Below, one piece after another: positions 6,622 to 32,632 of a DNA stretch of 64,000 bases. Under the pieces are notes generated by a model. The model saw only the letters and a list, made by a program, of their open reading frames with translations, was not told where the DNA came from and did not search any database. Source of the DNA: Mesorhizobium sp. B2-1-8. Lineage in GTDB: Bacteria > Pseudomonadota > Alphaproteobacteria > Rhizobiales > Rhizobiaceae. The first letter of the stretch is position 1. Each line of letters begins with the position of its first letter. The DNA lies in NCBI RefSeq assembly GCF_006442545.2, contig NZ_CP083952.1, positions 992,001 to 1,056,000 on the forward strand. Reading direction: 5' to 3'. The translations under genes were made by a program, and so were the position numbers.

Positions 6622-7857
6622 TCACACCTCGCCGTGCCCCGCGATCATCATGGCTTCCAGCGCCAGCCGGTCGACCTTGCGCATGCGTTCCGATTCCGAC
6701 TTCAGCTGGCCGCAGGCGGCCAGGATGTCGCGGCCGCGCGGCGTGCGGATCGGCGAGGCATAGCCGGCATTGTTGATATAATCGGCGAATTTCTCGATCG
6801 TCTCCCAATCCGAGCACTGGTAATTGGTGCCGGGCCACGGGTTGAACGGGATCAAATTGATCTTGGCCGGAATGCCCTTGAGCAGCTTGATCAGGCCCTT
6901 GGCGTCCTCGATGGAATCGTTGACGTCCTTCAGCATCACATATTCGAAGGTGATGCGCCTGGCGTTGGAGAGGCCGGGATAGGCCCGGCAGGCGGCGATC
7001 AGCTCCTTCAGCGGATACTTCTTGTTGATCGGCACCAAAAGGTCGCGCAGATCGTCATTGGTGGCATGCAGCGAGATCGCCAGCATGACGCCGATCTCCT
7101 CGCCGGTGCGGAAAATCTCGGGCACGACGCCGGAGGTCGACAGCGTGATGCGGCGCTTCGACAGGGAAAGGCCGTCGCCGTCGGAGGCGATCAACAGCGC
7201 CTTCTTGACCGCCTCGAAATTGTAGAGCGGCTCGCCCATGCCCATCATGACGATGTTGGAGACTTTTCTGCCCTCGGCCGGCACGATGGCGCCGTCGGGC
7301 GTGTCGCGGTCGGGGAAGTCGCCGAGCCGGTCGCGCGCGGTGAGCAGCTGGGCGAGGATTTCCTCGGCCGTCAAATTGCGCACCAGCTTCTGCGTGCCGG
7401 TATGGCAGAACGAGCAGGTCAGAGTGCAGCCGACCTGCGAGGAAATGCAGAGCGTGCCGCGGCCTTCCTCGGGGATATAGACGGTTTCGATTTCGACCGG
7501 CCGGCCGGCGCCGCGCGGCGGAAAGCGGAACAGCCACTTTCGCGTGCCGTCGGCGGAAATCTGCTCCTCGACGATTTCTGGTCGGGCGACGGTGAAATGC
7601 TTGTCGAGTTCGGCGCGCAGATCCTTGGAGATGTTGAACATGCCGGCGAAGTCGGAAACGCCGCGCACATACATCCAGTGCCAGAGCTGCTGGGCGCGCA
7701 TTTTCGCCTGACGCTCCGGCACGATGCCTGAAGCGACGAGGGCCTCGCCGAGTTCGGCCCGCGTCAGGCCGATCAGCGACGGTTTTTCGGCCGTCACGGC
7801 ACGGCCGCGCAACGCGTCGCGGGCGCCTTCTGCGGTAAGGTCGAGGGAAAGGGTCAT
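6622..7857 (-). CDS. rlmN: 23S rRNA (adenine2503-C2)/tRNA (A37-C2)-methyltransferase, radical SAM
   Basis: RlmN methylates C2 of A2503 in 23S rRNA and of A37 in some tRNAs by a radical SAM mechanism. The 411-residue protein has the cluster-binding CxxxCxxC at C144, C148 and C151 (CTLTCSFC), the preceding [12 protein letters not shown] strand, and the C-terminal catalytic Cys in [20 protein letters not shown] is the conserved SAM-contacting GEP motif. The start at 7857 gives a typical slightly extended rhizobial N-terminus. Two small membrane-protein genes follow directly. Confidence 0.96.
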
Positions 7858-7961
7858 GGCTCTACTGATATAAACGGTTTGCGGCCGATTTCATCCATCG
7901 GCCCGATGTCAAGCGCGGCGCATAGCACAGCTTGGCGGCGGAGTCATGCCGCAGCTATCGG

Positions 7962-8000
7962 GCAGCTTGTCCCGCCGCCGGGCCGCGGGGGACAAGCTGC
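7962..8000. repeat. Perfect 12-bp inverted repeat (hairpin)
   Basis: GCAGCTTGTCCC (7962-7973) and GGGACAAGCTGC (7989-8000) enclose a GC-rich 15-nt loop, in the gap between divergent rlmN and the Met-rich protein gene. There is no U tract, so it is not a simple terminator; an attenuator or small palindromic element is possible. Confidence 0.5.
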
Positions 8001-8125
8001 GACTGCCTTGTGCCGTTCCCCGGCGCGCGATCGATCACATATTCGTGTCGGCGCGTAACGGCCGGCGCGCCGTCCGCGAACCCTGAATGGGGCGACTGTG
8101 CCCCTGCACAATGGGAGTATGCGGA

Positions 8126-8425
8126 ATGAAATCGATCAAGCTCGCCGTCATCGCCGGCCTCGCCGCTCTTTGCGCCTCGCAGGCATTCGCCGAGGACACG
8201 ATGGGCACCATGACCATGATGAAAGGTGGACAAGTGACGGCGATCATGCCGGACGGGCACATGGGCACCATGATGCCGGACGCGAAGATGGGCGCCGACA
8301 TGATGAAGATGGCCAAGCCGATCAAGCATTGCATGATGATAATGACCGACGCCAAGGGCAAAGCCTATATGGTCGACACGTCGACCAAGAAGGCCCAGGC
8401 CGAATGTGAAAAAATGGCCATGTGA
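8126..8425 (+). CDS. Met-rich small exported protein
   Basis: Product of 99 residues with signal peptide 1-22 (MKSIKLAVIAGLAALCASQA, FA^ED). GGGAG lies 9 bp before the ATG at 8126. The mature part of about 77 residues contains 18 Met, many in MM, MxM or HM pairs (TMTMM, DGHMGTMM, DMMKMA, HCMMIM), plus single His and Cys residues. Methionine clusters in exported proteins typically bind Cu(I), but no established copper-chaperone domain is recognised, so this is inference. It stands alone, followed by a GC-rich hairpin. Confidence 0.75.
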   Translation: MKSIKLAVIAGLAALCASQAFAEDTMGTMTMMKGGQVTAIMPDGHMGTMMPDAKMGADMMKMAKPIKHCMMIMTDAKGKAYMVDTSTKKAQAECEKMAM

Positions 8426-29751: not shown

Positions 29752-29818
29752 CAGTTGCAAAGCAAATTTGTGCGATGCGGCAGCGACGGTGCCGCATCGT
29801 TCCAGGGACAGGCATGGG

Positions 29819-30430
29819 ATGCGGCTGATCGCCGAAAATCTGGGCGGCGAGCGCGGCGGCGCGACGGTGTTCTCCGGCATCGGGTTTGTGCTGGAGGCCG
29901 GACAGGCGCTGATCGTCACCGGGCCGAACGGTTCGGGCAAATCGACCTTGCTCAGGGTGGTCGCCGGACTGCTGCCGAAAGCCGAAGGCCGCCTGCTGCT
30001 CGAAGGCGGCGGCGACGAATTCCCCTCGATCGCCTCGGCCTGCCACTATCTCGGCCACCAGAACGCGATGAAGACGGCGCTGAGCGTGACCGAGAATTTG
30101 CGCTTCTGGCGGGAGTTCCATGGCGAAGGCCGGCTCGATGTCGAGGAGGCGCTGGAAACAGTCGGGCTGGGCGGCATCGGCCATTTGCCGTTCGGCTATC
30201 TCTCGACCGGACAGCGACGCCGCGCGGCGATCGCGAAACTTCTGGTCAGCCACCGGCCGTTGTGGCTGCTGGATGAGCCGACGGCGGGGCTGGACAAGGC
30301 CTCGGAGGCGCGGTTCGCGGGACTGATGCGCGGGCATTGCGCGGATGGCGGGATGATCGTGGCGGCGACGCATCTGCCGCTGGGATTGGAGGGGGCGAAG
30401 GCGCTGGCAATGGGGCAGAGCTTTCCATGA
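29819..30430 (+). CDS. ccmA: Cytochrome c biogenesis ABC ATPase CcmA
   Basis: A 203-residue ABC ATPase with Walker A GPNGSGKST (about 38-46), a Ccm-type signature LSTGQRRR in place of LSGGQ, Walker B LWLLDEPTAGLD and the helix ending VAATHLPLG. It energises release of holo-CcmE from the CcmABCD haem-handling complex. ATG 29819 is chosen since the frame upstream is not conserved. It opens the ccm operon, but a long palindromic repeat separates it from ccmB. Confidence 0.94.
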   Translation: MRLIAENLGGERGGATVFSGIGFVLEAGQALIVTGPNGSGKSTLLRVVAGLLPKAEGRLLLEGGGDEFPSIASACHYLGHQNAMKTALSVTENLRFWREFHGEGRLDVEEALETVGLGGIGHLPFGYLSTGQRRRAAIAKLLVSHRPLWLLDEPTAGLDKASEARFAGLMRGHCADGGMIVAATHLPLGLEGAKALAMGQSFP

Positions 30431-30442
30431 TTGCGCTTTACG

Positions 30443-30602
30443 GCGCCCCCCTCTGCCCTGCCGGGCATCTCCCCCACGAGGGGGGAGATTGGATGTTGTC
30501 TCGGCTTTCGCCAATCTCCAACGTCTCAAAAGAGGCGCGATGGTCGAAGCTGCCGATCTCCCCCCTCGTGGGGGAGATGTCCGGCAGGACAGAGGGGGGC
30601 GC
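30443..30602. repeat. Long rhizobial palindromic element between ccmA and ccmB
   Basis: Two nearly complementary arms of 48 bp (30443-30490 and 30555-30602; about 45 matches) begin GCGCCCCCCTCTGCCCTGCC and end GGCAGGACAGAGGGGGGCGC, with the inner CTCCCCCACGAGGGGGGAG. They are separated by a 64-bp loop. This is a common mobile-type intergenic palindrome of Rhizobiales; here it lies inside an operon and would form a strong hairpin in the ccmA-ccmB mRNA. Confidence 0.85.
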
Positions 30603-30638: not shown

Positions 30639-31304
30639 ATGTGGTCCCTCCTCCTCCGCGACATCCGCCTTTCGATCCGCGCCGGCGGCGGCGCGTTGAC
30701 CGGCGTCATCTTCTTCCTCGCCGTCATCGCCACCATCCCGTTCGGCGTCGGGCCGGACCTCAAGCTCTTGGCCCGCATCGGCCCGGCGATCCTGTGGATC
30801 GGGGCGCTGCTTGCCTGCCTGCTCGGGCTCGACCGGCTGTTCCAGGCCGACCGCGAGGACGGCTCACTCGATCTGCTGGTGCTCGGCAACGACCGGCACA
30901 TGCTGGCGCTGACGGTGCTGGTGAAATGCGTGGCGCATTGGGCGGGCAGCGTCTTGCCGCTGGTGGTCGCCGCGCCGCTGCTCGGCCTGTTCATGAACAT
31001 GGAGCCGTTGGCGATCGGCGCCACGGCGCTGACGCTTCTGGTCGGCACGCCGGCCATCACCTTCATCGGCGCCGTGGGCGCCGCGGTGGCGGTGGCGCTG
31101 CCGCGTGGCGGGCTCTTGATCTCGGTGCTGGTGCTGCCGCTGACCATCCCGGTGCTGATCTTCGGCGTTTCGGCAAGCTATGGCGCGACGGCCAATCCCG
31201 ATCCGTTCCTGCAGCCTTTCCTCATTCTTGCCGCGCTGACCTTGTTCCTTGCGGTGCTGGGCCCCGTGGCCGCGGCGCTGGCGCTACGCCATGGTACGGA
31301 TTGA
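30639..31304 (+). CDS. ccmB: Haem exporter protein CcmB
   Basis: Product of 221 residues from ATG 30639 (MWSLLLRDIRLSIRAGGG), the standard CcmB N-terminus. Six hydrophobic segments follow, with the DRLFQADREDGSLDLL cytoplasmic loop diagnostic for CcmB. It is the membrane subunit of CcmAB that works with CcmC, CcmD and CcmE in cytochrome c maturation. Its TGA at 31302-31304 overlaps the ATG of an Imm50-like gene (TGATG), where ccmC would be expected. Confidence 0.94.
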   Translation: MWSLLLRDIRLSIRAGGGALTGVIFFLAVIATIPFGVGPDLKLLARIGPAILWIGALLACLLGLDRLFQADREDGSLDLLVLGNDRHMLALTVLVKCVAHWAGSVLPLVVAAPLLGLFMNMEPLAIGATALTLLVGTPAITFIGAVGAAVAVALPRGGLLISVLVLPLTIPVLIFGVSASYGATANPDPFLQPFLILAALTLFLAVLGPVAAALALRHGTD

Positions 31305-31687
31305 TGTGGCCGCTACGCATTGAAAACCCGATCTTCCTGCAGAACATCTACGGCAACTATCCCGATCTGTCGTCCGTCGAGATCACATCAGCAGCGATGA
31401 ACCGCGACGGCCCCAGCATGCACCTCTCGTTTATGTCGACAGTGCTTCCCTATCGTCCGCCGGCCAAATGGGGTGAGTTCAACGCAGTGTCTTTCGGGCT
31501 CGAATTCATCGGGATCGAGACGATCAGCCTGCGCAAATTCCAGAGCAACGGCTTGAGCGCCATTAGGATGTGGGATGACGCAGGCAAAATTCTGCTCACC
31601 TGTGAAGGCACCGTACGGCTTTCGCTGACATGCCAAGCTATGCGTATTTCCAGTATTTGGGGTTTTTTGCTGTCGAAGGCGCCATAA
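31304..31687 (+). CDS. Imm50-like protein in the place of ccmC
   Basis: A 127-residue soluble protein coupled to ccmB by TGATG. It starts MWPLRIENPIFLQNIYGNYPD and has the alternating pattern VEITSAAMNRDGPSMHLSF, KWGEFNAVSFGLEFIGIETISL and a C-terminal EGTVRLSLTCQAMRISSIW, which resembles the immunity protein 50 family linked to polymorphic toxins. The codon composition is less GC-rich than ccmA/ccmB. No toxin gene lies nearby. It has no membrane segments, and so is not a CcmC. Assignment to Imm50 is from pattern memory; its presence in this operon is odd. Confidence 0.55.
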   Translation: MWPLRIENPIFLQNIYGNYPDLSSVEITSAAMNRDGPSMHLSFMSTVLPYRPPAKWGEFNAVSFGLEFIGIETISLRKFQSNGLSAIRMWDDAGKILLTCEGTVRLSLTCQAMRISSIWGFLLSKAP

Positions 31688-31765
31688 CCGCAAATCTGCC
31701 GCAGACGCCATTCATTGCGGCGGACGGCCGCCCCAGTTATGAACTGGCAAGCCTTGGATCGAGAG

Positions 31766-31939
31766 ATGAGCCCGCACGCCCTTTACGTCACCGCCGCCTA
31801 CGCCATCACGGCGATCGTGCTGGCCGGACTGATCGGCTGGATCCTGCTCGACCAGCGGGCACGCAAGCGCGAACTCGCCGAACTCGAGGCGGCCGGGGTG
31901 CGGCGGCGCTCCGACAAGACCGGGGCGGGAAAGCCGTGA
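31766..31939 (+). CDS. ccmD: Haem exporter accessory protein CcmD
   Basis: Product of 57 residues from ATG 31766, preceded by GGATCGAGAG. It is a single-span membrane protein: MSPHALYVTAAYAITAIVLA then GLIGWILLDQRARKRELAELE, the standard CcmD layout with a basic, coiled cytoplasmic tail ending RRRSDKTGAGKP. CcmD bridges CcmC and CcmE in haem delivery. The GTG of ccmG overlaps its stop (GTGA at 31936-31939). Confidence 0.9.
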   Translation: MSPHALYVTAAYAITAIVLAGLIGWILLDQRARKRELAELEAAGVRRRSDKTGAGKP

Positions 31940-32514
31940 GCAGCGAAACCGAAACGCCGCCGCCAGTCCGTCGCCGCCTGTTCGTGTTTTTGCCGCTGCT
32001 GGTCTTCCTCGGCCTGGCCGGACTGTTCCTGTCGCAGCTGTTGTCGGGGCGCGATGTCTCGGAAGTGCCGTCGGCCTTGATCGGTCTGCCGGCACCGCAA
32101 ACCAACCTGCCGCCCCTGGAGGGCAGCAATCTGCCCGGGCTCGATTCGAAAGCCTTCGCCGGCAAGGTCACGCTGGTCAACGTCTTTGCGTCGTGGTGCG
32201 CGCCATGCAGGGAAGAACACCCGGTGCTTCTGGCGCTGGCGCAGGACAAGCGATTCGCGATGGCGGCGCTGAATTACAAGGACCGGCCGGAAAACGCCCG
32301 CCGCTTCCTCGGCGACCTCGGCAACCCGTTCCAGGCGATCGGCGTCGACGAAGCCGGCCGCACGGCGATCGACTGGGGTGTCTATGGCGTGCCGGAAACC
32401 TTCGTCATCGGCAAGGATGGCAAGATAGCCTACAAGCATGTCGGCCCGCTGACGGCCGAGTCCGCCACGGAGCTTCTGCTGCCGCAGATCGACAAGGCGC
32501 TCGCGGCGTATTGA
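31936..32514 (+). CDS. ccmG: Thiol:disulfide interchange protein CcmG/DsbE
   Basis: The 192-residue protein has an N-terminal membrane anchor (RRRLFVFLPLLVFLGLAGLFL) and a periplasmic thioredoxin domain with the active site ASWCAPCREEHP and the CcmG/ResA-type insert before GVYGVPETFVIGKDGKIAYKHVGPL. It reduces the apocytochrome c haem-binding Cys in the periplasm. Translation is coupled to ccmD. An inverted-repeat element begins right after the stop. Confidence 0.94.
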   Translation: MSSETETPPPVRRRLFVFLPLLVFLGLAGLFLSQLLSGRDVSEVPSALIGLPAPQTNLPPLEGSNLPGLDSKAFAGKVTLVNVFASWCAPCREEHPVLLALAQDKRFAMAALNYKDRPENARRFLGDLGNPFQAIGVDEAGRTAIDWGVYGVPETFVIGKDGKIAYKHVGPLTAESATELLLPQIDKALAAY

Positions 32515-32515
32515 T

Positions 32516-32632
32516 ATTCAGGTGATGCCGGCCTGCAAATGGAGGCGTCCCGCGCTTCCGGCGCTCACGTGCTTAAGTACGCTCCGCTCCGGTTCTCGGA
32601 AACCACCATTTTCGGCTCGGCCTGACCTGAAT
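32516..32632. repeat. ATTCAGGT...ACCTGAAT element, long copy
   Basis: Terminal perfect inverted 8-mers ATTCAGGT (32516-32523) and ACCTGAAT (32625-32632) bound a 117-bp segment that starts GATGCCGGCC and ends GGCCTG. A 31-bp copy with the same ends is at 43229-43259. It begins 2 bp after the ccmG stop and may act as terminator. Confidence 0.65.

Follow-up and report, generated by a model that had tools for sequence, protein, structure and literature searches.

The window, by which we mean the whole 64,000-nucleotide stretch of the Mesorhizobium sp. B2-1-8 genome analysed here, carries a set of cytochrome c maturation (ccm) genes on the plus strand. The gene for the haem exporter ATP-binding subunit, ccmA (approximately 29819–30430), scores 226.7 bits against TIGR01189 (cut-off 131.6); its frame opens at 29768 and the start codon was picked by eye. 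It is followed by ccmB (30639–31304; TIGR01190, 258.7 bits), an Imm50-family gene encoding 127 aa (31304–31687; PF15594, 69 bits), ccmD (31766–31939; TIGR03141, 66.9 bits) and the DsbE-family gene ccmG (31936–32514; TIGR00385, 177.2 bits), the GTG start of which overlaps the ccmD stop. The Imm50 gene is coupled to ccmB through a TGATG at 31302–31306, where the ccmB stop (31302–31304) overlaps the Imm50 start, and its own stop codon lies at 31685–31687. A promoter-like element, TTGCGG-N16-TTATGA, was found on the plus strand at 31715–31742 and follows a pattern common to the corresponding gaps of the genus. The neighbourhood of the Imm50 gene in the window comprises ccmA, ccmB, ccmD, ccmG, a gluconolactonase-like gene, and a minus-strand gene beside the operon that we take to be acnA.

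The distance from the ccmB stop to the ccmD start is 461 bp, and a family search of this gap returned no match to ccmC. An earlier, sequence-only reading had described ccmB coupled to Imm50 by TGATG and followed by ccmD and ccmG without ccmC, and this arrangement is borne out by the open reading frames and the family profiles. The assignment of the 127-aa protein to Imm50, proposed in the same reading, is far above chance (E = 5e-19; score cut-off 27.1 bits). The window has the same order of ccmA, ccmB, ccmD and ccmG beside acnA as the Rhizobiales System I ccmABCDG operon; unlike that operon, it has Imm50 in the gap and ccmC behind ndvA.

Two repeats lie around these genes. The ccmA-ccmB intergenic region contains an inverted repeat (30443–30602) with two 50-nt arms (30443–30492 and 30553–30602; 94% complementary) and a 60-nt loop. 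In the window the core of this palindrome matches at its two arms only, and 12 of 284 loci contain it in exact form, four of these being copies of the same place. A looser form, scored anywhere in each of 33 ccm loci of the genus, is present in 20 of them, including 8/11 with Imm50 and 12/22 without. The inverted repeat between ccmA and ccmB that had been noticed in the sequence is therefore real, but its frequency in loci of both kinds identifies it as a dispersed repeat, and it does not bear out the rearrangement that had been suggested; it also lies away from the ccmC site. A second element of 117 bp (32516–32632; ends ATTCAGGT...ACCTGAAT) is located just behind ccmG. Four congeners (G015, G093, G113 and G154) have a similar element between ccmB and ccmD, and it is therefore a dispersed repeat as well.

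Position of ccmC in this genome and its relatives

In the Mesorhizobium sp. B2-1-8 genome, a search for the cytochrome c assembly family gave two matches, ccmF (a 664-aa frame) and ccmC (253 aa). The ccmC gene is intact and present in one copy (C1:4631562–4632320, minus strand), scores 267.3 bits against TIGR01191 (cut-off 186) and contains the WWD haem-binding motif (WGTWWVWD at residue 124). The role of the WWD domain is treated in the available part of PMC12077264. The gene is 3.6 Mb from ccmAB and ccmD and on the opposite strand, so that it does not belong to one operon with them, and it lies behind ndvA, also called chvA (TIGR01192, 975 bits). At this locus (L246:7560–10206) ccmC stands in line behind ndvA/chvA, and the large frame upstream of ndvA is presumably a cyclic glucan synthase; ccmC may be transcribed together with these glucan genes or solely from a promoter of its own close to its ATG. 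The genes ccmI, ccmE and ccmF are grouped at another place. As in Rhizobiales System I, ccmC, ccmE, ccmF and ccmI are all encoded, and, judged from these genes together with ccmA, ccmB, ccmD and ccmG (ccmH was outside the profile test), the Ccm pathway looks complete. The window operon lacks ccmC because the intact gene sits at another chromosomal place, which was one of the possibilities raised by the sequence-only reading. Another possibility, that c-type maturation through the Ccm route (System I) had been lost, is unlikely given an intact ccmC together with ccmI, ccmE and ccmF, and was rejected on the strength of these genes.

The same position of ccmC was found throughout the genus. Among 146 Mesorhizobium genomes, ccmB was matched in 145 and ccmC in 143. 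All 145 ccmB loci were read, and the counts given here use the 143 with ccmD; two loci without a ccmD match in the stretch (G085 and G110) were dropped. In G110 the contig stops 340 bases past ccmB. In G085 (L195, from approximately 820) a transposase-like frame, which we take to be IS110-like, follows the short frame described below and opens right where ccmD should start, and ccmD is seemingly interrupted or displaced. None of the 143 loci has ccmC between ccmB and ccmD. In all 25 Mesorhizobium ccmC loci that were read, ndvA adjoins ccmC, as it does in 8 of 28 ccmC loci of other genera. Three genomes gave no ccmC match. In two of them (G093 and G117) ndvA is cut by a contig end, which explains the missing match; in the third, the draft G149, no close ndvA was found either.

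To place the genus in its family, 121 genomes drawn evenly from the larger group were used, of which 120 have both ccmB and ccmC. The two genes are no more than 3 kb apart on one strand in 96 of the 120 and are split in the other 24. Two Mesorhizobium genomes and eight other genera among the split ones have ccmC beside ndvA; the ccmC loci of the remaining 14 were read in part. Another kind of split was seen in one of these 14, G194 (L097), where ccmC, ccmD and ccmG stand together approximately 369 kb from ccmAB. From these comparisons, the ccmC relocation is, as far as gene positions can tell, shared and old, and the rule in the genus rather than specific to this strain. The junction without ccmC recurs in 143/143 genus loci, and Imm50 is present in only 11/143. 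Among titles and the beginnings of abstracts, with the subscription literature mostly outside the scope, no paper on the placement of ccmC in Mesorhizobium was found.

Distribution of Imm50 and structure of the ccmB-ccmD gap

A close Imm50 homologue was detected in 11 of the 146 Mesorhizobium genomes, and all 11 copies lie within the ccmB-ccmD gap (143 loci read) with their start coupled to ccmB by TGATG. Eight of the copies are intact and three are broken. The window gene is the only PF15594 match in its own genome. In a tree built from ccmB and ccmD-ccmG of the 143 loci, the 11 carriers require 11 changes of Imm50 state, compared with a mean of 10.7 for shuffled labels, and 10 of these 11 changes are forced by well-supported branches. 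The carriers are scattered over the tree and are no better clustered than shuffled labels. The loci of G100 and G135 resemble Imm50 alleles that have lost the gene by deletion. The named close relatives of the protein all come from Mesorhizobium or Allomesorhizobium. A scan for Imm50 gave 11 named records, which probably overlap in part with the genus genomes counted separately; all 11 have Imm50 between ccmB and ccmD, and in two the match to the family is partial.

Beyond the genus, the PF15594 profile matches 5 of 394 family genomes, namely that of B2-1-8 itself, G246, G228, G224 and G455. In G246 and G228 Imm50 is located in the ccmB-ccmD gap, and both genera also have the moved ccmC. The order in G455 is ccmA-ccmB-Imm50-ccmC-ccmD-ccmG, with an intact ccmC (258 aa, 268.8 bits) and an Imm50 match of 49 bits, which shows that Imm50 and an in-operon ccmC are compatible. 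The copy in G224 (L260, approximately 7820–8197) is divergent (33% identity), contains one stop and is the only one found away from ccm genes. Confinement to one locus, G224 excepted, is not what one would expect of a mobile immunity gene and might point to a function tied to this place. The proposal that Imm50 stands in place of ccmC is not supported: ccmC is also missing from the 132 Imm50-free Mesorhizobium loci, and G455 has both genes.

In the 132 Imm50-free Mesorhizobium loci, the ccmB-ccmD gap measures 99–270 bp. A promoter-like pattern (TTGC.., 15–17 bases, a box of TAA or TAT type) is present in 135 of the 143 genus loci, compared with 84 of 2860 base-shuffled gaps, and its spacer is exactly 16 in 130 of the 135. 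Behind it stands a short frame, here called the stub, which was counted in 130 loci that share kinship and are not independent trials. G100 and G135 were left out of this count because their Imm50-deleted-looking alleles have no stub. Under a strict rule, with an ATG just behind the box and a frame running to a TGA that overlaps the ccmD start, the stub is found in 119/130 loci; among the others, the ATG is out of frame in one and missing from this place in ten. When any in-frame ATG is allowed, 129/130 loci have a stub of 7–21 codons, the exception being G106. In G140 the stub has 25 codons by a different frame rule. The TGA overlaps ccmD because ccmD begins with ATGA. In the window the promoter-like element at 31715–31742 is kept and the stub is absent.

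A like promoter element precedes ccmC in 22/25 Mesorhizobium and 6/8 sister ndvA loci, and in 19/21 loci where ccmC stands beside ccmD. In 16/25 in-operon loci, ccmC ends on the ccmD start with the same kind of overlap as the stub. The best of the 129 stubs against the CcmC N terminus, that of G050, agrees in 9 of 15 residues, a score reached by 5 of 200000 shuffles. Four of the 129, including G050, resemble this N terminus at p ≤ 0.05, which is about the chance rate, and the remaining stubs compared show no likeness to it beyond chance. Beyond their boxes the likeness of the two promoters is suggestive at most: the ungapped score of the surrounding sequence is not significant (reached by 59180 of 100000 shuffles) and the gapped scores are borderline (964 and 271 of 20000). 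A deletion scar, sought as the leftover Imm50 start TGATGTGG, was rejected; it occurs in only 13/132 Imm50-free loci, and the reading is too weak since ccmB too starts with ATGTGG. The stub is likely to be a fossil of the original ccmC, kept for its coupling to ccmD, and the element at 31715–31742 in the window is read as a putative promoter left by that gene.

Selection, composition and predicted fold of Imm50

The eight intact Imm50 copies are under purifying selection, with dN/dS of 0.06–0.23 in 27 of 28 pairs and an undefined value in the other pair. Their dS is 0.39–2.22 in 26 pairs, compared with 0.30–0.61 in ccmB, and codon bias of ccmB may account for part of this gap. For the pair G104/G144 (L068 and L069), the Imm50 dS of 0.13 is below the ccmB dS of 0.36, which suggests a recent exchange. 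Imm50 has a G+C content of 54%, against 69% for ccmB (70% and 90% at third positions), pointing to a gene of foreign make-up.

The best of five AlphaFold models of the Imm50 protein has a pLDDT of 91.6, the others 75–79, and is mostly beta, with eight strands and one short helix. The Imm50 family is likewise described as mostly beta in the part of PMC3482391 at hand. No PDB entry matches the model at E ≤ 0.001. The weak matches include 5v77, an uncharacterised Neisseria protein (E = 0.003), and at rank 3 8owu, a chain of the toxin/immunity complex PT7/PIM7 (E = 0.013). A profile search for a solved Imm50 relative gave none at E ≤ 1. The nucleases Tox-HHH and Ntox24 are named as partner toxins of Imm50 in the same portion of PMC3482391, and the Rhs toxin Tox-HNH-EHHH in the accessible text of PMC10469887.

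The window protein resembles the PF15594 immunity family of polymorphic toxin systems in score, in length (approximately 127 aa) and in its mostly beta model. Unlike Imm50 in that setting, it has no neighbouring toxin and is embedded in a core operon for cytochrome c assembly: no toxin gene adjoins Imm50 in the window or in the 11 named records, where the flanks are ccm genes. The gene fits the pattern of orphan immunity, that is, a member of an immunity family without an adjacent effector and patchy in relatives. Orphan immunity genes have been reported for gut bacteria and Serratia (available parts of PMC12247911 and PMC10539506). Like the orphan genes in those parts, window Imm50 is toxin-less and patchy in relatives; unlike them, it is a single gene in a housekeeping operon and its protection is putative. 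The most likely reading of Imm50 is an orphan immunity protein of long standing, a function suggested by its family name and modelled fold.

Origin of the junction and its implications

In our judgement, with a probability of approximately 80%, two unrelated events came together at one spot, the relocation of ccmC and a separate entry of Imm50. In the ancestor of Mesorhizobium and at least eight other genera, ccmC would have taken up its place behind ndvA/chvA, and the copy left between ccmB and ccmD would have shrunk to a stub comprising a promoter, a start region and a stop overlapping the ccmD start. With CcmC encoded at the other locus, the CcmABCD-CcmE haem relay should run normally. A low-GC Imm50 gene would have entered between ccmB and the ccmC promoter, either before the ccmC move or apart from it, leaving the scattered minority that carries it today. 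The simplest account is one Imm50 insertion before the ccmC move followed by many losses; a separate insertion at the same place in G455 is possible. The Imm50 protein would be made by read-through and by start/stop coupling from ccmB, and, being soluble and mostly beta, would bind a nuclease domain delivered by a competitor.

Several other explanations of Imm50 at this junction were weighed. The one that survives best, at odds of perhaps one in six, holds that Imm50 is a neutral insertion in decay that no longer has a function; the patchy distribution, the three broken copies and the apparent deletions in G100 and G135 agree with it, but in the eight intact copies, which have diverged to a dS of as much as 2.2, dN/dS does not exceed 0.23 in any of the 27 measurable pairs. 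That the Ccm pathway recruited Imm50, to regulate CcmB or CcmD or to partner one of them, and that it thereby compensates for ccmC at the other locus, is improbable. The TGATG coupling and the place in the ccm gap, both in 11/11 carriers, and the purifying selection across the intact copies would suit such a role, and against it stand the 132/143 loci without Imm50, the 3/11 broken copies and the presence of Imm50 beside an in-operon ccmC in G455. Even less credible is a single event in which Imm50 replaced ccmC, with later loss of Imm50 from the other members of the genus. In its favour, the G246 locus has Imm50 flanked by ccmB and a stub-like frame, so that the two could already have been present in the ancestor of the genera with a moved ccmC. 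The intact ccmC of G455 speaks against a single event, unless Imm50 was gained there independently, as does the position of Imm50 upstream of the putative residual ccmC promoter rather than across the ccmC coding site. An assembly error joining ccmB to ccmD can be dismissed, because the ccmC-less junction in 143/143 genus loci, ccmC beside ndvA in 25/25 and ccmB-Imm50-ccmD in 11/11 named records recur in other assemblies.

Within the preferred account of two unrelated events, the stub may have acquired a use. We tentatively propose, at somewhat less than even odds, that the abandoned ccmC is kept genus-wide as a promoter and a micro-ORF (mostly 15–21 codons) that would serve as an on-ramp for the translation of ccmD. 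The junction would then have a second form, the Imm50 allele, in which the micro-ORF is lacking, and both forms would coexist in close species through repeated loss and at least one exchange.

Taken together, the observation of the sequence-only reading stands and its interpretation was half right; what lies behind it is for the most part ordinary biology, a gene that has moved and an immunity gene that has strayed in. The seeming paradox of a Ccm operon without its haem-loading subunit is removed, and the loss of a pathway is unsafe to infer from one operon. If Imm50 is read correctly, core operons can house orphan immunity genes, and surveys restricted to secretion loci miss them. If the stub is what it appears to be, the ccm locus of Mesorhizobium offers a well-sampled case of a relocated gene with a remnant kept for translational coupling, and this conserved stub, with its possible role in ccmD expression, is the part that deserves a second look.
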